Source of the DNA: Desulfovirgula sp. | Lineage (GTDB): Bacteria; Bacillota; Desulfotomaculia; Desulfotomaculales; Desulfocucumaceae | Assembly (NCBI GenBank): GCA_020725625.1 | Contig: DYET01000034.1 | Location: 1-64,000 of the forward strand | Direction of reading: 5' to 3' | DNA length: 64,000 nucleotides | Shown: positions 8,625 to 43,660 of the stretch, in pieces | Numbering within the stretch: position 1 is the first letter of the stretch | Layout: every line of letters starts with the position of its first letter | Notes under the pieces: generated by a model | The model's database searches: none | Told to the model about the DNA's origin: nothing | Seen by the model: the letters and a program-made list of their open reading frames with translations, nothing else | Program-made: the position numbers and the translations under genes

Positions 8625-9083
8625 TTGCGCGTTGTCCTGGTTGAACCCGAGATCCCCGCGAATACAGGCAATGTGGCCCGGACCTGCGCCGTTACCGGGG
8701 CGGAGCTGCACCTGGTCAAACCGCTTGGATTTTCTATCGACGACAGGCACCTGAAAAGGGCCGGGCTGGATTATTGGCACCAGGTAAAGGTATTCCTGCA
8801 CGAGAACTTCGGCAGCCTGCTGCAGGAATACCCGGAGGGCAGGTTTTTATACTTCTCCACCAGGGGCAGGAAGTTATACACGGAAATAAGGTACACGGAG
8901 GGCGATTTCCTGGTCTTCGGCAAGGAAACCGCCGGCCTGCCAGACCACATCCTCAAGGCCAACGAGAACCATACCCTGAGGTTGCCCATGCTGCCGGGGC
9001 GGCGTTCCTTGAACCTGTCCAACTCGGTGGCCGTGGTGGTCTTCGAGGCCCTGAGACAGCAGGGATTCCCCGGAATGGCCTAG
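8625..9083 (+). CDS. trmL: tRNA (cytidine/uridine-34 2'-O)-methyltransferase
   Basis: A 152-residue SPOUT methyltransferase of the TrmL/CspR family, which methylates the 2'-O of the wobble nucleotide of tRNA-Leu isoacceptors. The N-terminus RVVLVEPEIPANTGNVARTC is diagnostic, and the C-terminal trefoil-knot motifs VFGKETAGLP and LPMLPGRRSLNLSNSVAVV are present. The TTG at 8625 is taken as start because it places the conserved VVLVEPE at residues 3-9 and has GGTGG upstream; GTG at 8613 is the alternative. Confidence 0.93.
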   Translation: MRVVLVEPEIPANTGNVARTCAVTGAELHLVKPLGFSIDDRHLKRAGLDYWHQVKVFLHENFGSLLQEYPEGRFLYFSTRGRKLYTEIRYTEGDFLVFGKETAGLPDHILKANENHTLRLPMLPGRRSLNLSNSVAVVVFEALRQQGFPGMA

Positions 9084-9211
9084 GGCCGGGGCGAGGTATT
9101 ACAGGCGATTTTGAAAAAGCAGGATTTATCCTTTTCCAAATAGAATATGTATATTATTATTAACATAATATGAACATGTTACGTGACGGTGGTTCCGGGG
9201 GAGGGGCGGTC

Positions 9212-10147
9212 ATGGAGTTGAGCCTTAACCATCTGAAAAGATCCATGGAGAGGGAAGGCTACGTCAGCGAGGACGACCTGGCGGTGACGGTGTTCCTTGC
9301 CCTGACCCTGAAAAAACCCCTGCTGGTGGAAGGGGCGCCGGGGGTCGGAAAAACTGAAATCGCCAAGGTGCTGGGGAGGGTGTTCAGAACCGAGGTGATC
9401 AGGTTGCAGTGCTACGAGGGCCTTGACGAAAACAAGGCCCTGTATGAGTGGAATTACCAGAGGCAGCTTTTGAAAATCCAGATTCTCAAGGACCAGTGCT
9501 CCCAGAAGGACATTGAAAAGGACCTGTTCGACGAGGAATACCTCCTGGAAAGGCCTCTTTTGAAGGCCATCAGGAGTTCAAAAAGGGTTGTTCTGCTGAT
9601 TGACGAGGTCGACAAGGTGGATGAACCGTTTGAGGCTTTTCTTTTCGAGCTTTTGTCGGACTTCCAGGTCTCCATACCGGAACTGGGCACCCTGACGGCA
9701 AGGGAGATTCCCATCGTAGTGCTCACCAGCAACGGGGACAGGGAACTCTCGGACGGCCTCAAGCGGCGCTGCGTCTACCTTTACATCGATTACCCGGACA
9801 TCGAGAAGGAAGCAAAGATACTGCAGATGAAGGTCCCCGAGGCCGGAGAAAGGCTTAACCGGGAGATTGCCGCGGCGGTAGGCTACATCAGGGCCAACCT
9901 GGACCTTCGCAAGCAGCCGTCCATCGCCGAGTCCCTGGACTGGGCCAGGGCGCTGGTGGCGCTCCACGCCGACGCCCTGACGGCGGACAACATGGCCAGG
10001 ACCGTCAACCTTCTGCTGAAGAACCGGGACGACCGCATGCAGGTGCTGGACGGCAGGGTGCTGCAGGACATCCTGAGACATGCCTCCGGCGCGGGGGCCG
10101 AAGAAGGAGGCCGCCCGGCGTGCCGGTGCCGGAACCACGGGCACTGA
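9212..10147 (+). CDS. MoxR-family AAA+ ATPase
   Basis: A 311-residue ATPase of the MoxR group, chaperone-like proteins that help insert cofactors or remodel partners bearing a von Willebrand A domain. Walker A is GAPGVGKTE near residue 42, Walker B is VVLLIDEVDK near 130, and sensor 1 is VLTSNGDREL. The start at 9212 has GGGGGAGGGG upstream. The Cys/His-rich tail CRCRNHGH is unusual. Its partner VWA gene follows in the same frame after this gene's TGA, with 93 bp between the stop and the first standard start codon. Confidence 0.9.
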   Translation: MELSLNHLKRSMEREGYVSEDDLAVTVFLALTLKKPLLVEGAPGVGKTEIAKVLGRVFRTEVIRLQCYEGLDENKALYEWNYQRQLLKIQILKDQCSQKDIEKDLFDEEYLLERPLLKAIRSSKRVVLLIDEVDKVDEPFEAFLFELLSDFQVSIPELGTLTAREIPIVVLTSNGDRELSDGLKRRCVYLYIDYPDIEKEAKILQMKVPEAGERLNREIAAAVGYIRANLDLRKQPSIAESLDWARALVALHADALTADNMARTVNLLLKNRDDRMQVLDGRVLQDILRHASGAGAEEGGRPACRCRNHGH

Positions 10148-35056: not shown

Positions 35057-35797
35057 CTACAGTGGCACCAGCCTAATCCTTCCCTTGACCGCCAGCCGGT
35101 CTCCCAGGATGGCCAGGGCGCCGCTCACCCCGGGAATGGAAGTGGCGAAACTGACAGCCTTTTCCAGGTCGTCCCAGGACTTGACCAGGTTTCCGGCGGC
35201 GGTGGCCGCGGCGTCGGCCAGAGGGGCCGACGGGGAGACCACAACCACCGCGTCGGCGCACCCGAAGCTCAGGGAGTGGCCGACCGTGCCGGATGAGGTG
35301 CAGATCCCCGCCGGCGTTTCATCGGGGCGGATTTCCAGGCCCAACCGGTAGCTCAGCACCGACCTGCCGGCAAAAATGCCGATCAGCCTTTTTCGCCTGG
35401 TGCGCAGGAAAATATCCCCGCCGTTTTCCACAATCACTTCGCGGGAATACCTCAGGAGATCCCTGCCCACCGCCTCGGATATGGCCCCGGCCACGGCCGC
35501 CATGGGTCCCACCCCGGCGGACCTGGCGGCGCCGGCCATGGCCGTCGCGATGGCCGGCGCGCCGGGCAAGGTATGGCAGGGGACCAGGGATTTTAAAAAT
35601 CCCGGGTCCCTTTCGATGTAGTCCTCCAGCTGGGCCCGGTACTTCCTGACCAGCTTTTCCACCAGTTCAACCGTTTTCTCATTGTAGCGCTCCTTCCTTA
35701 GGCCCACGTCGAGGTCGGTTTCCCTGACGGCCACCCGGAAGTGGACCAGGTCATCCTGGCGGTGCCTGAGGCGGTAATCCCTTTCCAGGTACTCCAA
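35057..35797 (-). CDS. UPF0280 (COG2122, ApbE-related) protein of homocysteine synthesis
   Basis: A 246-residue protein of the UPF0280 family, related to ApbE flavin transferases (motif VENGGDIFLR near residues 120-130; SSGTVGHSLSFG further on). It starts with TTG at 35797 immediately after the TAG of the NIL-ferredoxin gene, so it is translationally coupled to it. In sulfate reducers and methanogens, genes of this family, NIL-ferredoxin and COG1900 are required together for a route forming homocysteine from aspartate semialdehyde. Its own chemistry is not settled. Confidence 0.85.
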   Translation of the reverse strand: MEYLERDYRLRHRQDDLVHFRVAVRETDLDVGLRKERYNEKTVELVEKLVRKYRAQLEDYIERDPGFLKSLVPCHTLPGAPAIATAMAGAARSAGVGPMAAVAGAISEAVGRDLLRYSREVIVENGGDIFLRTRRKRLIGIFAGRSVLSYRLGLEIRPDETPAGICTSSGTVGHSLSFGCADAVVVVSPSAPLADAAATAAGNLVKSWDDLEKAVSFATSIPGVSGALAILGDRLAVKGRIRLVPL

Positions 35798-36208
35798 CTA
35801 GAGCTTTACCTCCATGGCCCTCACCGGGCAGATTTTTAGGCACAGCTGGCAGACCACGCAGTTGTCACCGTCAAACCTGACCTCCATCGACGGCCTCTCC
35901 AGATAGAGGGCACCGGTCGGGCAGATGGCCGTGCAGCCCCCGCACATAATGCATCTTTCTTCATCCCTAACGATTTCCTGGGTCAGGGCCTGGACCTGGA
36001 CTCCCTGATCACGCAGGTAGTTCATCCCTCCGTCCACCTGATCCCCGGTGATTTCCAAGACCATGGTACCCTCTTTCTGCGGGTTGACATTGGCCTTGAG
36101 GATGTTCACGACAAGGTCGTAGTCCTTGACCAGCCGGTAGATGATGGGCTTGTCGGAGATGTCGGGACCGAACCTCAGTACTATTTTTTTAGGCGCCACA
36201 CGCCTCAC
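35798..36208 (-). CDS. NIL-domain [4Fe-4S] ferredoxin
   Basis: A 136-residue protein: an N-terminal NIL domain (residues 5-75, KIVLRFGPDISDKPIIYRLV), as found in methionine transporters and sulfur-metabolism proteins, then a two-cluster ferredoxin with CIMCGGCTAICPTGAL and CVVCQLCLKICPVRAM. It is the middle gene of the COG1900/NIL-Fd/UPF0280 operon and is thought to supply electrons or carry sulfur in homocysteine formation. Its stop codon abuts the next start. Confidence 0.9.
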   Translation of the reverse strand: MRRVAPKKIVLRFGPDISDKPIIYRLVKDYDLVVNILKANVNPQKEGTMVLEITGDQVDGGMNYLRDQGVQVQALTQEIVRDEERCIMCGGCTAICPTGALYLERPSMEVRFDGDNCVVCQLCLKICPVRAMEVKL

Positions 36209-36291
36209 TCCTTGCCAGTTTATTTTTCCGGGTCGCGGTTTTGGTCAGCATCAGACGGTCCATCCAGCCTTTTTCGACAAACCCTGGCACA

Positions 36292-37482
36292 TTACCCCTT
36301 CAGGGCCTTGCCGCTGATCCCGTCCGCCGGAGAGGGCAGGAGCTGCACGGGCTCGGTGAGCAGAAACCTGCCCTGTTCGATCCACTGCTTGAGAATTCCG
36401 GCTATTTCCCTGGCCTTAGGGTAGCTTGACAGCGGCGCGGCAGGAACCTCCTTGCCGTTCACCTTTATCCTGCCAGATTTGAGTTCGGCATAGCTTACAT
36501 AGCCCATGTTGCCCGGGGTCCGGCTGGGGTAGGCCTCGCTGTAGTCCACCACCGGCGCGTACAGTTCCCGGTCGCTGGCCGCCGCGTAAAGGGCGATTTC
36601 CTCGTCCAGGATGGGAATGGGTATGCCGATGCCCACCGCAAAGGAAGCGCCGTACCCGACAAAGCTGATCCCTTTCAGCCACCTGGGGGACATCTGCTTG
36701 AGATCCCCGATCACCGCCAGGGTTCCTCCGGCCGGCCCTAGGGTTTTTCCGTCCGGCGACTTCTGGATGGAGGGGAAGTGCTGGGTACCGTGCCAAGCCA
36801 CATACCCGACGCCCCCGCCCAGGAATATCCTGGTGCCTATGCCCACGGTCCTGAAGTGCGGGTCCTTGAGAAGCGGGCTAAGCTGGCCGGAGGTGGAATA
36901 ATGGGCGTTGCCGAGGTTGGGCTTGAGCATTCCCATATAGGTGTATATCGTCCGGCTGCCCAGGTTCACCGCGCAGTTATAGTTCTGGTACGCGTTGCGC
37001 GGGTTGAATAAAAATGCCTCGTTTATATCGTCAATGGTGATGGTGGTCTCCAGTTCCCTGCGCGGGTAACAGTCAGTGCCGTAGCTTGTGGCTTTCAGGC
37101 GGACCGGCCGGCGGGCCACCAAGTCCTCGATGACGTGCCCGCCGCCGTACCGGAATTCCCCGGGATAGTTGCTGTTCAGCGGGTCGTCTTCGGGCACCTC
37201 GGTGGCGCCGATGTAAACGTCCACTGCCGCTATGCCGGAGTAAGCGGGCACGCCGTTGAGCCATACCTTTTGCATCTTCATGCGGGGGGCCGGGTGGCCC
37301 AGGTTTAGAAAGGCGCCGGACGAACACATGGGAGCGAAGGTGCCGGTGGTTACAACGTCCACCTGCCTGGCTGCGGCGGCCAGGCCTTTTTCCTCCGCCA
37401 GGGAAACGAAGTCGTCTGCAGTCAGGACAACAGCCTTTCCCGTCTTGATTTTTGCGTTGATTTCCGCGTAGCTCTTTTCCAT
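36292..37482 (-). CDS. COG1900/DUF39 homocysteine biosynthesis protein
   Basis: A 396-residue protein of the COG1900 (DUF39) family, which in methanogens and sulfate reducers is needed to convert aspartate semialdehyde plus a sulfur donor to homocysteine. Visible family motifs are the Cys in FAPMCSSGAFLNLGHP near residue 55, a Cys in SYGTDCYPRRE near 145, and WHGTQHFP near 245. The start at 37482 follows GGAGGG; an earlier TTG lies within the leader. It is the first gene of a three-gene operon under a SAM-I riboswitch (37575-37688), the regulation expected for a methionine-pathway gene. The next gene starts 83 bp downstream. Confidence 0.9.
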   Translation of the reverse strand: MEKSYAEINAKIKTGKAVVLTADDFVSLAEEKGLAAAARQVDVVTTGTFAPMCSSGAFLNLGHPAPRMKMQKVWLNGVPAYSGIAAVDVYIGATEVPEDDPLNSNYPGEFRYGGGHVIEDLVARRPVRLKATSYGTDCYPRRELETTITIDDINEAFLFNPRNAYQNYNCAVNLGSRTIYTYMGMLKPNLGNAHYSTSGQLSPLLKDPHFRTVGIGTRIFLGGGVGYVAWHGTQHFPSIQKSPDGKTLGPAGGTLAVIGDLKQMSPRWLKGISFVGYGASFAVGIGIPIPILDEEIALYAAASDRELYAPVVDYSEAYPSRTPGNMGYVSYAELKSGRIKVNGKEVPAAPLSSYPKAREIAGILKQWIEQGRFLLTEPVQLLPSPADGISGKALKG

Positions 37483-37833: not shown

Positions 37834-39483
37834 TCATTCCAGGGCCGCAATCCATCTTTTTATTTTTCTGTCCTCGTCCAGCAGCAGGGATTGGGCCTGT
37901 TCGACGGTAACCGGTACGAAGCGGACCGCGTCGCCAGGCATGAGCTGGGCCACCTTTGGCAGGTCAATGGATACAATCGTCCCTATTTCAGGATATCCGC
38001 CCGCCGTTTGGGAGTCGACAAACAGTATGATGGGCTTTCCGTGGCCGGGCACCTGCACCGTCCCCGGGACCGTGCCGTCGGAGATGATCTCGGCGGGCCC
38101 CAGGTGTTCCACGTTCGGGCCTTCCAGCCGCAGGCCCGTCCTGTCCGAGTCGATGCTCACGGAATACTCCGAAGAAAAAAATGTTTCCATGCCCTTTCGG
38201 CTGAAATAGTCGTCCCGGGGACCGGGCACAACCCGTAAAAGGCGGGGTTTTTCCCGGCTTGGAAGCATGTTCGGGGGAACTTCCCGGGGCTGGGCACCGC
38301 AACCGGCAACTTCCCGGCCGGCGCCTGCCGCCGCCAACACGTCCCCGGCTTCCAGGGCGCGCCCCCGGTAGCCCCCAAGTCCTGTGCGCAGGAAGGTGGA
38401 GCGGCTTTCCATCACCGGCGGCACTTCAATGCCGCCGGCAACGGCGAGATACGCCCGGCACCCCTCCCCGGGGCCGAAAAAAGAAATTACCGACCCGGCT
38501 TTTACAGGTACTGACCGCCATCCCGGCAGGGGCTTTTCATCAAGCCGGGCGCCCAGGTCGGCCCCGGTGACGGCTATGACCGTGTCACCAAGTACTTCCA
38601 GGCGGGGGCCGATGGCAGTTATTTCCAGGCAGGCCCTGTTTTCGTCGTTTCCCACCAGGAGGTTGGCCAGTTTGAACGAGTAATGGTCGGCGGCACCGGA
38701 CGGCGGGATTCCGAATTGCTGGTAGCCGTGTCTCCCCAGGTCCTGGACGGTGGTCAGCAGCCCGGGCTGGATTACCTTAAACAGCGGGACGGCGCACCCG
38801 GCCGGCAGGCCGGACAGCCGGCGGTATTCGGCCTCGCTTATCTCAACGAAGCGCACGCAGTCCCCTGCTTTCAACAGGACGGGAGGGTTCTTGCCGGGAT
38901 CGTATAGTTTCAATGGGGTTCGCCCGATAATCCGCCATCCCCCGGGGCTGTCCACGGGGTAAATGCCGGTCTGGCTGCCGCCGATGCCCACCGAACCAGC
39001 CGGTACGACGGAACGGGGGTTTTTCAGCCTGGGGGTGATCAGGCGCCGGTGCAGTTCGCCCAGGTAAGGGAAGCCGGGCAGGAACCCAAGCATATACACG
39101 TGATATAGTTTTCCGCTGTGCAGGGAGATTACCTGTTCCGCCGTCAGGCCATGGTGGCGGGCGACAAAATCGAGGTCGGGGCCGAGTTCGCCGCCGTAAC
39201 AGGTCGGTATTTCCACCGTCCTGTGGGTGGAACCGCCGGCCGGACGCCGGGACGACACCCGGGAAATAATTTCTCTTACCAGGTCCCGGTGGGATATTTC
39301 CAGCGGGTCGTAATGCACCACCACTGACCGGTAAGTAGGCACCAGTGCGGTTACTCCGGGCAACGGACGGATTTTTTCCGACAGGATCCGAACCCGCCTG
39401 CTTACGGCCCTGCTGATTTGGTTGTCCAGTTCAACAACAAGACAGCGGTCGCCCGCTGTCCTGAAGCGAGGCCAATTACTCAC
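37834..39483 (-). CDS. 5-oxoprolinase subunits PxpB and PxpC, fused (KipI-KipA)
   Basis: A 549-residue fusion. Residues 1-225 are PxpB/KipI-like (LPGVTALVPTYRSVVVHYDP, MLGFLPGFPYLG, SVGIGGSQTGIYP), and about 235-545 are PxpC/KipA-like (VIQPGLLTTVQDLGRHGYQQ, SGAADHYSFKLANLLVGN, DSQTAGGYPEIG). With PxpA these subunits hydrolyse 5-oxoproline using ATP; in Bacillus, KipI also inhibits the sporulation kinase KinA. No pxpA gene is adjacent. It starts with GTG at 39483. Proximity to sigK may be coincidence. Confidence 0.9.
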   Translation of the reverse strand: MSNWPRFRTAGDRCLVVELDNQISRAVSRRVRILSEKIRPLPGVTALVPTYRSVVVHYDPLEISHRDLVREIISRVSSRRPAGGSTHRTVEIPTCYGGELGPDLDFVARHHGLTAEQVISLHSGKLYHVYMLGFLPGFPYLGELHRRLITPRLKNPRSVVPAGSVGIGGSQTGIYPVDSPGGWRIIGRTPLKLYDPGKNPPVLLKAGDCVRFVEISEAEYRRLSGLPAGCAVPLFKVIQPGLLTTVQDLGRHGYQQFGIPPSGAADHYSFKLANLLVGNDENRACLEITAIGPRLEVLGDTVIAVTGADLGARLDEKPLPGWRSVPVKAGSVISFFGPGEGCRAYLAVAGGIEVPPVMESRSTFLRTGLGGYRGRALEAGDVLAAAGAGREVAGCGAQPREVPPNMLPSREKPRLLRVVPGPRDDYFSRKGMETFFSSEYSVSIDSDRTGLRLEGPNVEHLGPAEIISDGTVPGTVQVPGHGKPIILFVDSQTAGGYPEIGTIVSIDLPKVAQLMPGDAVRFVPVTVEQAQSLLLDEDRKIKRWIAALE

Positions 39484-40505: not shown

Positions 40506-40759
40506 TCAATCCCTCCTCCTGCCTTGAAAAATGCGATGCCTTATATCTTATGCCCGATCCGGGCAAAAGTGCCAGTCCCAAAGAAAGTTTTTAACGTTGT
40601 TGCAAAAATGAAATATAATTTGTTTAGTATTTGTTTATTTAAGATGTTAATTAAATGATAAAATAGGGTTAAGGACGGGAATGGCGGTGTAAAGGCGGCT
40701 GGTACGGTTTTTGAAATAGTTTTAATTGCGTAAAAAAACCATCACAAGGAGGTTATCCA

Positions 40760-41584
40760 ATGTGCCAGTGGTGTGTGAAGCACGGGGACGGAGGAAAATG
40801 GTACTTTAATACCAGGAACTACGCCCAGAAGATGTACAAGCTGAGGGCCAAGGAAATAAAGAGGAAGGGCGCGGAGTCCAACCCCCAGACCATGGCCGAG
40901 GACATTATGGCCGAGGCTATAGAGGCCAGGAGCCTTGACCCGGTGAACTTCCCCATGCTCAAGGAAAGGGCGGAGCAGTTGAGCCAGGCCGTTCATTTCG
41001 GCCAGGTAATCACCCTGGAAGAAGTTTGCGCCATCATGGACATCGCCTATCCCCTGGCCAAGATGACCTGCGCCTGCCGGCGGCACGTACGGGGGCTGCC
41101 CAACGAAAAGAATTATTTCTGCATGGGGATCGGGGTCGGCATGTTCAAGTGGGAGAGATGGCCGGAGACTTACCGGGGAGGCGTGGAGTTTTTGTCGCCC
41201 GGAGAGGCCAAGGAGTGGTTGAGGGAAGTGAACAAAATGGGGATGGTGCACACCTTCTGGACCTTTGGGACGCCCTACATAGGCGGCATATGCAACTGCG
41301 AGTACCCTGTCTGCCTGGGCATCAGAAACAGGCTCGATTACGACATCAGGGTGCTGATCAAGGGAGAATGGGTGGCCCAGGTGGACGGCAGCCTGTGCAC
41401 CGGCTGCGGCACCTGCGTGGAGCGCTGCCAGTTCGGGGCGGTCAAGATTGAGGTGTCCCTGGGCAAGGCCAGCGTGAACATGATGAAATGCTTCGGCTGC
41501 GGCCTCTGTGAGACCGGGTGCAAAAACAAGGCCGTGACCATGGTCGACCGCAACAGCCTCCCGGTACTGAGGGAAATCTGGTAG
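40760..41584 (+). CDS. Iron-sulfur protein with two C-terminal [4Fe-4S] ferredoxin motifs
   Basis: A 274-residue protein. The first 190 residues contain additional cysteines (MCQWC at the start, MTCACRRHV, YFCMG, GGICNCEYPVCLG) that could bind another cluster or metal. The C-terminus has CTGCGTCVERCQFGAV and CFGCGLCETGCKNKAV, a standard two-cluster ferredoxin. It starts at ATG 40760 behind AAGGAGG. It heads a co-directional group with a second ferredoxin 12 bp later, a Cys-rich protein and an amidohydrolase. I do not recognise the system; it is likely an electron-transfer unit for an unknown reductase. Confidence 0.75.
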   Translation: MCQWCVKHGDGGKWYFNTRNYAQKMYKLRAKEIKRKGAESNPQTMAEDIMAEAIEARSLDPVNFPMLKERAEQLSQAVHFGQVITLEEVCAIMDIAYPLAKMTCACRRHVRGLPNEKNYFCMGIGVGMFKWERWPETYRGGVEFLSPGEAKEWLREVNKMGMVHTFWTFGTPYIGGICNCEYPVCLGIRNRLDYDIRVLIKGEWVAQVDGSLCTGCGTCVERCQFGAVKIEVSLGKASVNMMKCFGCGLCETGCKNKAVTMVDRNSLPVLREIW

Positions 41585-41595
41585 GAGGTGGAAAG

Positions 41596-41871
41596 ATGCT
41601 GTTACCCGAAATAAATATCAACCACGATCTCTGCCGAAGGCCACTGGAGTGCGCCATTTGCCTGAGTGTATGTCCCCAGGCTGTGTTCAAGGCGCTGCCG
41701 GTCAACGTGTACAAGTTCATGGAGACGCCGGAGGATGAATACAGGCTGAGGCCGGTATACAGGGTGGATTGCTCGGGCTGCGGCAAGTGCGTCAGTGATT
41801 GCCCGGCGGGCGCCATTTCAATTGAATTCAGGCAAATCGATCCCGGAAAAGGAGGGCGGTCAAATGGTTAA
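41596..41871 (+). CDS. Small ferredoxin-like protein
   Basis: A 91-residue protein. The first cysteine set is loosely spaced (CRRPLECAICLSVCPQAVF) and the second is standard (CSGCGKCVSDCPAGAIS). The start at 41596 follows AGGAGGTGG and lies 12 bp after the previous gene. Its end overlaps the next start by 8 bp, so translation is coupled. It probably accepts electrons from, or passes them to, the preceding iron-sulfur protein. Confidence 0.75.
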   Translation: MLLPEININHDLCRRPLECAICLSVCPQAVFKALPVNVYKFMETPEDEYRLRPVYRVDCSGCGKCVSDCPAGAISIEFRQIDPGKGGRSNG

Positions 41872-42412
41872 AAGCTACCCGGAGTACAGCTACGACCTGG
41901 CGGACGAATTGATTGAAGCCATGGCTCCCTACCGGGCGGACGGAGTGGTGGCCCTTGTCAAGGAGAAATCGTTAGCCGGCCCGGATCCTGAGGTTTTCAG
42001 GGAAGCGGGGGAAAGGGCCGCGTCCGCGGCGGTGGAGGCGGGAAAAACTTACCGGGACAGGACCGGCGAGATGATTGACCTGGTGGCCGCTAAAACCGGG
42101 CTGGCGTTTCCCACGGTTATGCAGCGCTACCTCGAGATATGGCTGTTGTGCACCGGCCTGGCCGAAAAGTGGCAACTGAAGCAGGCCACCCTGAGGGGCA
42201 TCGTCTACGAGGTAGCCCAATGCGCGGTCAGGGAAAGGGCGGGCCAGGAATGGCCTCTTACCGGGACAGCGGCCTGCGGCCGTTATTGCGAAGGGGCGCT
42301 GGAGACCATGGTCGCAAAACTGGGCCTGGATCTCGGGGTCGAGAGGGAGGACCTGGACGGACAGCAGGGCCTGTGCAGGTTTACGATAACCCCGAGGCAG
42401 TGTTCCTTCTGA
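41864..42412 (+). CDS. Cysteine-rich protein of unknown function
   Basis: A 182-residue, mostly helical protein. No recognised motif. The C-terminal third is cysteine-rich, with CGRYC and CRFTITPRQC, spacing that could bind a metal or cluster. The start ATG 41864 follows GGAGGG inside the previous gene. It is the third gene of the coupled iron-sulfur group. Confidence 0.65.
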   Translation: MVKSYPEYSYDLADELIEAMAPYRADGVVALVKEKSLAGPDPEVFREAGERAASAAVEAGKTYRDRTGEMIDLVAAKTGLAFPTVMQRYLEIWLLCTGLAEKWQLKQATLRGIVYEVAQCAVRERAGQEWPLTGTAACGRYCEGALETMVAKLGLDLGVEREDLDGQQGLCRFTITPRQCSF

Positions 42413-42502
42413 TCGTGAGGAGATCCATCACCCGGAACGGTGCCGGTCCATGGTGGAGGATCCATCCTTTCTTTTTGATCTGCTTTCCCGGGGGAGGTGC
42501 TG

Positions 42503-42781
42503 GTGCAGGTCAATACCGGCAGCATTACCGGGGACTTCGGGGAGGAGTGGGCGGAAGCGGCCCGGTTTATGGTATCGCGGCGCTGGGTGCATCTGACCGG
42601 TTCTAATGCGCACTATGTAAACCAGTGGCCGCCGGTTCTGAGCGGCGCCCTGGAACTGATTGAAGGTATCGCCGGGCCCGGAGCCGCTCGCTTGATAAGC
42701 AGAGTCTGGCCCCGGGAGATACTACGGGGCAGAGATATCCAAGCCTGGGAGCCGCTGCCCCCGCCCGACAGGCAGCTTTGA
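42503..42781 (+). CDS. Small protein of unknown function
   Basis: A 92-residue protein starting at GTG 42503 with GGGGGAGG 5 bp upstream. It contains several Trp residues (EEWAEAARFMVSRRWVHLTG and RVWPREIL) and a Pro-rich tail (EPLPPPDRQL). No family recognised. It lies between the Cys-rich gene and the amidohydrolase, co-directional, so probably in the same transcript. Confidence 0.5.
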   Translation: MQVNTGSITGDFGEEWAEAARFMVSRRWVHLTGSNAHYVNQWPPVLSGALELIEGIAGPGAARLISRVWPREILRGRDIQAWEPLPPPDRQL

Positions 42782-42817
42782 GGCAAATTTTAGTTAAAAG
42801 TTAAAGGAGACAGAAAA

Positions 42818-43660
42818 ATGAGCACCCCGGTGATTGATTTTCATATCCATCCCATCTATTACGAGACGTACTCCTCGTCCACTGAGGAATGGATTAGGAA
42901 CATCCAGGGAAAATCACGGACCCAATGGCCGGCCTTTGTGGAGGAGTTTTCCCGGCCGGCCAGCTTCTCCCGTTTCCTGCGGGAAAGCGGCGTCGACTAC
43001 GGGGTAGTCCTGGCCGAACTCAGCCCCATTACCACCGGCATGTGCCCAAATGAGTACGTGGCGGAATTCTGCCGGGGCCAGGAGAACATGATCCCCTTCG
43101 CCAGCGTGAATCCCTACCTGATGACCAACCCCAGAAAGGAACTGGCCCGCCTGGTACGGGACTTCGGGATCAAGGGGCTTAAGCTCTACCCCACCTACAA
43201 TTACTTTTACCCGAACGACCGCATGCTTTACCCGGTGTATGAAAAGGCCGAGGAATTGCAAATCCCGGTCATGGTGCACACCGGATCCTCTGTTTTTAAG
43301 GGTTCCCGGCTCAAGTACGGCGACCCCCTTTATCTGGACGATGTGGCGGTGGACTTTCCGGGCCTTTCCATCCTGCTGGTGCACAGCGGGCGGGGAGTGT
43401 GGTACAGCATGGCGTTTTTCCTGGCCCGCCTCCACCCAAATGTGTACATGGAGGTGGCCGGACTGCCACCACAGAAGCTGTTGGATTATTTCCCGGATCT
43501 GGAGCGCAACGCCGACAAGATTGTCTTCGGTTCGGACTGGCCCGGAGTGACCAGCATCCGGAACAATATCGAAATCATCCGCCGCCTTCCCCTGCAGGAT
43601 ACCACCAAGGAAAAAATACTGGGGGGCAATGCCGCCAGGCTGTTGAAGATAAAAACCTAA
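42818..43660 (+). CDS. Amidohydrolase-2 family metal-dependent hydrolase
   Basis: A 280-residue TIM-barrel hydrolase. Metal-binding motifs are DFHIHP at the start, MVHTGS and LLVHSGRG in the middle, and VFGSDWPG at the end, as in the amidohydrolase-related (PF04909) family, which includes decarboxylases and lactonases. ATG 42818 follows AAAGGAGA. It closes the iron-sulfur gene group, where a decarboxylation or ring-opening step could be coupled to electron transfer, but the substrate is unknown. Confidence 0.85.
   Translation: MSTPVIDFHIHPIYYETYSSSTEEWIRNIQGKSRTQWPAFVEEFSRPASFSRFLRESGVDYGVVLAELSPITTGMCPNEYVAEFCRGQENMIPFASVNPYLMTNPRKELARLVRDFGIKGLKLYPTYNYFYPNDRMLYPVYEKAEELQIPVMVHTGSSVFKGSRLKYGDPLYLDDVAVDFPGLSILLVHSGRGVWYSMAFFLARLHPNVYMEVAGLPPQKLLDYFPDLERNADKIVFGSDWPGVTSIRNNIEIIRRLPLQDTTKEKILGGNAARLLKIKT

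Follow-up and report, generated by a model that had tools for sequence, protein, structure and literature searches.

The locus considered here raises a simple question: do five open reading frames (ORFs) in a row, the first rich in cysteines and the last an amidohydrolase, encode one system, and what might that system do? They lie between positions 40,760 and 43,660 of the window, a 64,000-nucleotide stretch from Desulfovirgula sp. (Bacillota; Desulfotomaculia; Desulfotomaculales; GenBank assembly GCA_020725625.1, contig DYET01000034.1, positions 1 to 64,000). An initial annotation had suggested that all five may be a small redox enzyme complex linked to hydrolysis or decarboxylation. The five frames were found where that annotation placed them, all on the plus strand. 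A redox gene group could be upheld for the first three, ORF1 to ORF3 (40760-42412), but not a unit of all five with the amidohydrolase as its last member. We propose that the products of ORF1 to ORF3 work together as an iron-sulfur module that transfers electrons for a flavoenzyme in the anaerobic catabolism of acyl-coenzyme A (CoA) compounds, a reading on which we remain evenly divided.

A unit of three genes

ORF1 (40760-41584, plus strand) encodes a Cys-rich protein of 274 residues with a C-terminal two-cluster ferredoxin domain, ORF2 (41596-41871, plus strand) a 91-residue two-cluster [4Fe-4S] ferredoxin and ORF3 (41864-42412, plus strand) a 182-residue protein of an unnamed family. The gap between ORF1 and ORF2 is 11 bp, with GGAGGTGG directly 5' of ORF2, and the overlap of ORF2 and ORF3 is exactly the 8 bp noted earlier. 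A search for the same five-gene order in other anaerobes had been recommended. It separated the genes clearly: ORF1, the two-cluster ferredoxin and ORF3 followed one another in all 28 loci that were not cut by a contig end, in two classes, whereas genes 4 and 5 were scattered. Because the order was the same wherever the contig allowed it to be seen, the three genes form one unit, and their association goes beyond chance.

The unit is sparsely distributed. Within the order, ORF3 was found in 7 of 113 genomes, counting G010, whose copy on contig C96 (L078:6864-8100) has decayed, with stops and frameshifts. This remnant lies directly 3' of a MaoC-like gene and 5' of branched-chain amino acid transporter genes, and two HpaB genes are located further along the same contig. 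The second class was brought in by searching a 399-genome sample of the phylum for ORF3, which is present in 21 of 83 genomes of that class, nearly all of one large genus, perhaps Desulfosporosinus. Across the order every ORF1 homologue found with at least 52% identity was accompanied by ORF3, and the ORF1-like proteins that occur alone are more distant (31-36% identity). The Desulfovirgula genome itself carries a second copy of all three genes on contig C37 (6163-7861; L048), whose ORF1 and ORF3 are 57% and 38% identical to those of the window and which has no CoA-catabolism neighbours.

The cysteines of the two iron-sulfur proteins are conserved too. ORF2 is a two-cluster ferredoxin by its Fer4_7 match in Pfam (38.3 bits, 1.8e-9, above the cut-off). 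Its first cluster motif reads C-x5-C-x2-C-x3-C; a script recovered the 8-Cys pattern in each of 27 loci, and L046, the 28th, has it too. In ORF1 the sole domain type found by Pfam was Fer4/Fer4_7 at residues ~205-258 (Fer4 36.1 bits, above the cut-off). This ferredoxin domain is preceded by an N-terminal MCxxC motif and a middle domain with the pattern CxCR...C...CNC(x4)C, so that both unusual motifs pointed out in the initial annotation, MCQWC and CNCEYPVC, could be read in the protein. When the 28 unit sequences were aligned, 16 Cys columns were conserved: C104, C106, C121, C178, C180, C185 and the eight ferredoxin cysteines in all 28, C2 and C5 in 27 with one gap. By their number, the eight extra cysteines could provide for one or two further clusters.

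ORF3 is covered by no described family. It matched no Pfam or NCBIfam family, and NCBIfam likewise recognised none of nine ORF3 homologues; for the five frames it added no above-threshold assignment to those of Pfam. Yet four cysteines, C120, C138, C142 and C171, stay unchanged throughout 30 homologues whose identity ranges over ~24-65% and falls to about 24-35% in the more divergent ones. The structure prediction that had been suggested for the 182-residue protein gave an AlphaFold2 (AF2) model, built from three sequences, with a predicted local distance difference test score (pLDDT) of 71 and a predicted template-modelling score (pTM) of 0.73. In this model a helical N-terminal half is followed by a strand-strand-helix-helix-strand-strand unit. 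Foldseek pointed to an approximate fold class for the model, its matches among solved structures being H-NOX proteins, TRAPP/Bet3 subunits and the V4R domain of the aromatic sensor MopR, with probabilities up to 1.00. H-NOX, TRAPP/Bet3 and V4R structures share one fold class. Searching solved structures with the ORF3 sequence brought up no useful match.

Genomic context and proposed function

Outside the window the unit is genetically linked to CoA-dependent acid catabolism. Neighbours were counted over the fetched flanks of 30 ORF3 loci. Sigma-54 regulators and MaoC pairs were each found in about 20 of these, and genes for enoyl-CoA hydratase, CoA ligase, acyl-CoA dehydrogenase, 3-hydroxybutyryl-CoA dehydrogenase and thiolase in 11 to 17. 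HpaB-family genes were present in 19, most of them 1.3-8.5 kb from ORF3; in G014 one lies at ~20 kb. Members of the second class usually have, 3' of the unit, a MaoC-like hydratase pair, a sigma-54 regulator, an enoyl-CoA hydratase and an HpaB-family protein, together with an acyl-CoA dehydrogenase and a 3-hydroxybutyryl-CoA dehydrogenase. In the order, the unit lies with CoA ligases, nitroreductases, a metallo-beta-lactamase (MBL)-fold hydrolase, DUF362, a thiolase and HpaB proteins. Taken together, ligase, dehydratase, hydratase, dehydrogenase and thiolase suggest a route of the 4-hydroxyacyl or crotonyl type.

The best match of the linked HpaB proteins was 4-hydroxybutyryl-CoA dehydratase (1u8v), and they keep C99, C103, H292 and C299, the [4Fe-4S] ligand positions of that enzyme. 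They fall into two groups, near-orthologues with the motifs CFQRC and HRQSYGGC and a divergent branch with CIQRC and HRHSYxGC. Proteins of the divergent branch, cluster ligands included, are often encoded beside the unit (for example L062:11203-12675 and L140:13543-15021). No HpaB gene lies near the unit in the window, at the C37 paralogue or in G001 and G088; the Desulfovirgula genome possesses HpaB genes of both groups, with the ligands kept, on other contigs. Within the window, a CoA-catabolism operon either disappeared from around the unit or was never there, and the related enzymes are encoded on other contigs.

If the module operates as we propose, the three proteins would assemble into a complex in which ORF2 and ORF1 form a chain of clusters, exchanging electrons in one direction or the other with an enzyme that contains flavin or iron-sulfur clusters. 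ORF1 would hold two ferredoxin clusters and a further Cys-rich centre built from the cysteines of CxCR/C/CNC..C and MCxxC. ORF3, as a small V4R/H-NOX-like protein with one predicted four-Cys metal site, may link the ORF1/ORF2 pair to its partner or to a ligand, as an adaptor or sensor subunit. The likeliest partners would be the 4-hydroxybutyryl-CoA dehydratase-like HpaB protein, an acyl-CoA dehydrogenase or a flavin mononucleotide (FMN)-dependent enoyl reductase, because these are enzymes of the operon where the unit usually sits.

Several points weigh against this proposal. Dehydration of 4-hydroxybutyryl-CoA proceeds without net redox change, and no partner redox enzyme adjoins the unit in the window or at the C37 paralogue. 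Genomes that lack ORF3, among them G016, G041 and G049, also have HpaB enzymes of the same subclade, which evidently can do without the module. The association of the two is thus one of clustering and not of dependence, and an obligate dependence of the HpaB enzymes on the unit is ruled out. Finally, the structure prediction of ORF1 reached a pLDDT of only 39, and the fold match of ORF3 is modest (template-modelling (TM) scores 0.3-0.48, root-mean-square deviation 6-12 Å, best E 1.9e-3). In a more specific version of the proposal, ORF1, ORF2 and ORF3 would form an undescribed iron-sulfur redox complex dedicated to radical enzymes of a new, 4-hydroxybutyryl-CoA dehydratase-like branch, and ORF3 would be its docking or sensing subunit, representing a new family of four-Cys metalloproteins with the V4R/H-NOX fold; this version strikes us as tentative and somewhat unlikely.

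The linkage to HpaB-type enzymes with their cluster ligands kept could also be explained if the unit were a maturation or repair factor, building, inserting or re-reducing the oxygen-sensitive [4Fe-4S]/flavin adenine dinucleotide (FAD) site of an HpaB-type dehydratase or the site of another iron-sulfur enzyme. The four-Cys site of ORF3 would then be a cluster carrier, and four invariant cysteines in an otherwise substitution-rich protein are consistent with such a role. However, members of the HpaB subclade occur in genomes that lack the unit, and neither Pfam nor NCBIfam revealed any likeness to known assembly factors. We regard this explanation as unlikely.

The neighbouring sigma-54 regulators (about 20 of the 30 loci) invite a different thought, namely that the unit senses redox state or a ligand and feeds the adjacent regulator. 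The V4R-like pocket of ORF3 would then bind a metal or a small molecule, and ORF1 and ORF2 would report the redox state. The resemblance of the ORF3 model to the MopR aromatic sensor domain and to H-NOX sensors fits this idea, and there is a precedent in the V4R-domain regulator MsvR, whose redox-sensitive DNA binding is modulated by cysteine residues (PMC3729527). On the other hand, none of ORF1 to ORF3 contains a DNA-binding or signalling domain, no regulator adjoins the unit in the window, and sixteen cluster-type cysteines suit electron transfer better. A sensor therefore seems to us quite improbable, and we return to electron transfer in acyl-CoA catabolism as the preferred explanation.

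Flanking genes

The fourth gene, annotated initially as a small Trp-rich protein, has a different explanation. The 94-residue ORF (42497-42781, plus strand) corresponds to the C-terminal third of a CpsB/CapC gene (PHP domain), matching positions 159-233 of the 234 in profile PF19567, and the stretch just 5' of it, HPERCRSMVEDPSFLFDLLSRG, aligns to full-length CpsB/CapC homologues in a different frame. Since only the C-terminal part is left and the earlier parts lie in another frame, the region ~42423-42781 (plus strand) is a frameshifted and 5'-truncated CpsB/CapC pseudogene remnant; a genuine small Trp-rich protein is ruled out. A longer CpsB/CapC homologue with an open frame is found elsewhere in the same genome (contig C201) and in relatives. 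At the place of the remnant the closest relative, a Peptococcaceae metagenome-assembled genome (L011, contig G001:C42), has an unrelated MBL-fold gene (8708-9664). DNA similarity between the window and this sister contig ends just before the end of ORF3 and restarts at the amidohydrolase, and no trace of the sister's MBL-fold gene is left in the window. An MBL-fold gene in one genome and a CpsB remnant at the same place in the other represent lineage-specific gene exchange.

With gene 4 reduced to a remnant, 405 bp separate ORF3 from the amidohydrolase gene (42818-43660, plus strand), so the five genes are indeed co-directional but not tightly spaced throughout. The 280-residue product belongs to the amidohydrolase superfamily, with a match to Amidohydro_2 (PF04909) over its full length (E 1.5e-40) and the metal-site motifs DFHIHP, VHTG, VHSG and GSDWP (HxH, His, His, Asp). 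Homologues at E<=1e-20 were present in 23 of 60 related genomes, whereas ORF3 was found in 4 of the same 60. Reading the flanks of the homologue in four genomes (G013, G038, G027 and G032) showed neither ORF1 nor ORF3 nearby. Because the amidohydrolase is widespread in other surroundings and adjoins the unit only here and in one congener, a functional tie between them, and with it the link to hydrolysis or decarboxylation, is unsupported. Synteny rules out a five-gene operon, only ORF1 to ORF3 staying together in relatives. A five-gene redox complex coupled to the amidohydrolase is accordingly very improbable: the genes are co-directional in this genome and one congener, but the fourth is only what remains of a pseudogene, many genomes of the order have the amidohydrolase and lack the unit, and the unit has other neighbours in the remaining mapped loci.

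Two of the amidohydrolase homologues (L054 and L055, in G038 and G027) were seen by eye to lie near genes resembling UbiD/UbiX and molybdenum hydroxylases, and also near benzoyl-CoA reductase-like and indolepyruvate oxidoreductase-like genes. These surroundings suggest a role of the homologues in aromatic compound breakdown.

A possible promoter, TTAACG-17-TATAAT (40591-40619, plus strand), precedes ORF1 and agrees with the consensus at 10 of 12 positions; it is weak evidence, as matches of this type are no more numerous than in shuffled sequences. Further upstream, a 549-residue ORF (37834-39483) that by eye resembles a fused KipI-KipA (5-oxoprolinase subunit B/C-like) is absent from the equivalent place of the sister genome. 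Three genes on the minus strand (35057-37482), also named by eye, resemble the gene set for anaerobic biosynthesis of homocysteine (DUF39-like, NIL plus ferredoxin, UPF0280-like) and are kept in the sister genome.

Comparison with known systems

It is nothing new for a ferredoxin module to be tied to a catabolic operon. What sets this one apart is ORF3, a family outside Pfam and NCBIfam that nevertheless accompanies the same pair of iron-sulfur proteins wherever a complete locus was found, in two classes of anaerobes. Its placement in operons suggests a dedicated iron-sulfur helper for an unassigned acid-degradation pathway, to which the regular position beside a divergent 4-hydroxybutyryl-CoA dehydratase-like branch offers a testable entry. 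No description of the module was found in the openly accessible literature on the neighbour enzymes, ATC hydrolase and V4R with iron-sulfur, outside which most subscription papers fall. A 2026 paper on benzene activation refers to 4-hydroxybutyryl-CoA dehydratase solely to compare mechanisms (PMC13101534).

ORF1 is most readily compared with the long CxCR/CNCCxCCC 4Fe-4S ferredoxins of 355-369 residues, examples of which occur in the same genome (L003, L004 and L007). The two are collinear over the middle domain (CxCR, an EA..L...GLVH-like stretch, CNC) and the two-cluster ferredoxin that follows, and hhalign gave a score of 32 (E 6e-4) against 14-19 in control comparisons. ORF1 is, however, ~90 residues shorter, possesses the N-terminal MCxxC, and has CNCEYPVC (CNC-x4-C) where the long ferredoxins have the CNCCxCCC run by which their family is recognised. 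The stand-alone ORF1-like proteins mentioned above (L049-L052) agree with ORF1 in length and Cys pattern, but they have no adjoining ORF3 gene, and their genomes gave no ORF3 homologue at E<=1e-3.

Among the linked HpaB proteins, some are near-orthologues of 4-hydroxybutyryl-CoA dehydratase (AbfD, 1u8v; E 3e-218), while many copies differ from AbfD and belong to the divergent CIQRC/HRHSYxGC subfamily (E ~1e-84).

In overall fold the model of ORF3 bears a modest resemblance to V4R, H-NOX and TRAPP/Bet3 proteins; ORF3 has no sequence match to V4R. Membership of the V4R family (PF02830) by sequence was rejected, as there was no Pfam hit and hhalign comparisons with V4R sets gave probabilities <1. 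Profile comparison points weakly to ATC_hydrolase (PF14196, L-2-amino-thiazoline-4-carboxylic acid hydrolase). When a profile built from nine ORF3 sequences was compared with ten ATC_hydrolase proteins, hhalign aligned 131 columns (probability 73, E 3.1e-5, score 37.6), whereas two unrelated control alignments scored 14-19 with probability <1. No ORF3 sequence reached the gathering score on its own, the best E being 0.13 in one of seven. ORF3 is probably a distant relative of this group and not a member of it, and three ATC_hydrolase examples share with it a similar C-x14-17-C-x3-C...C spacing.

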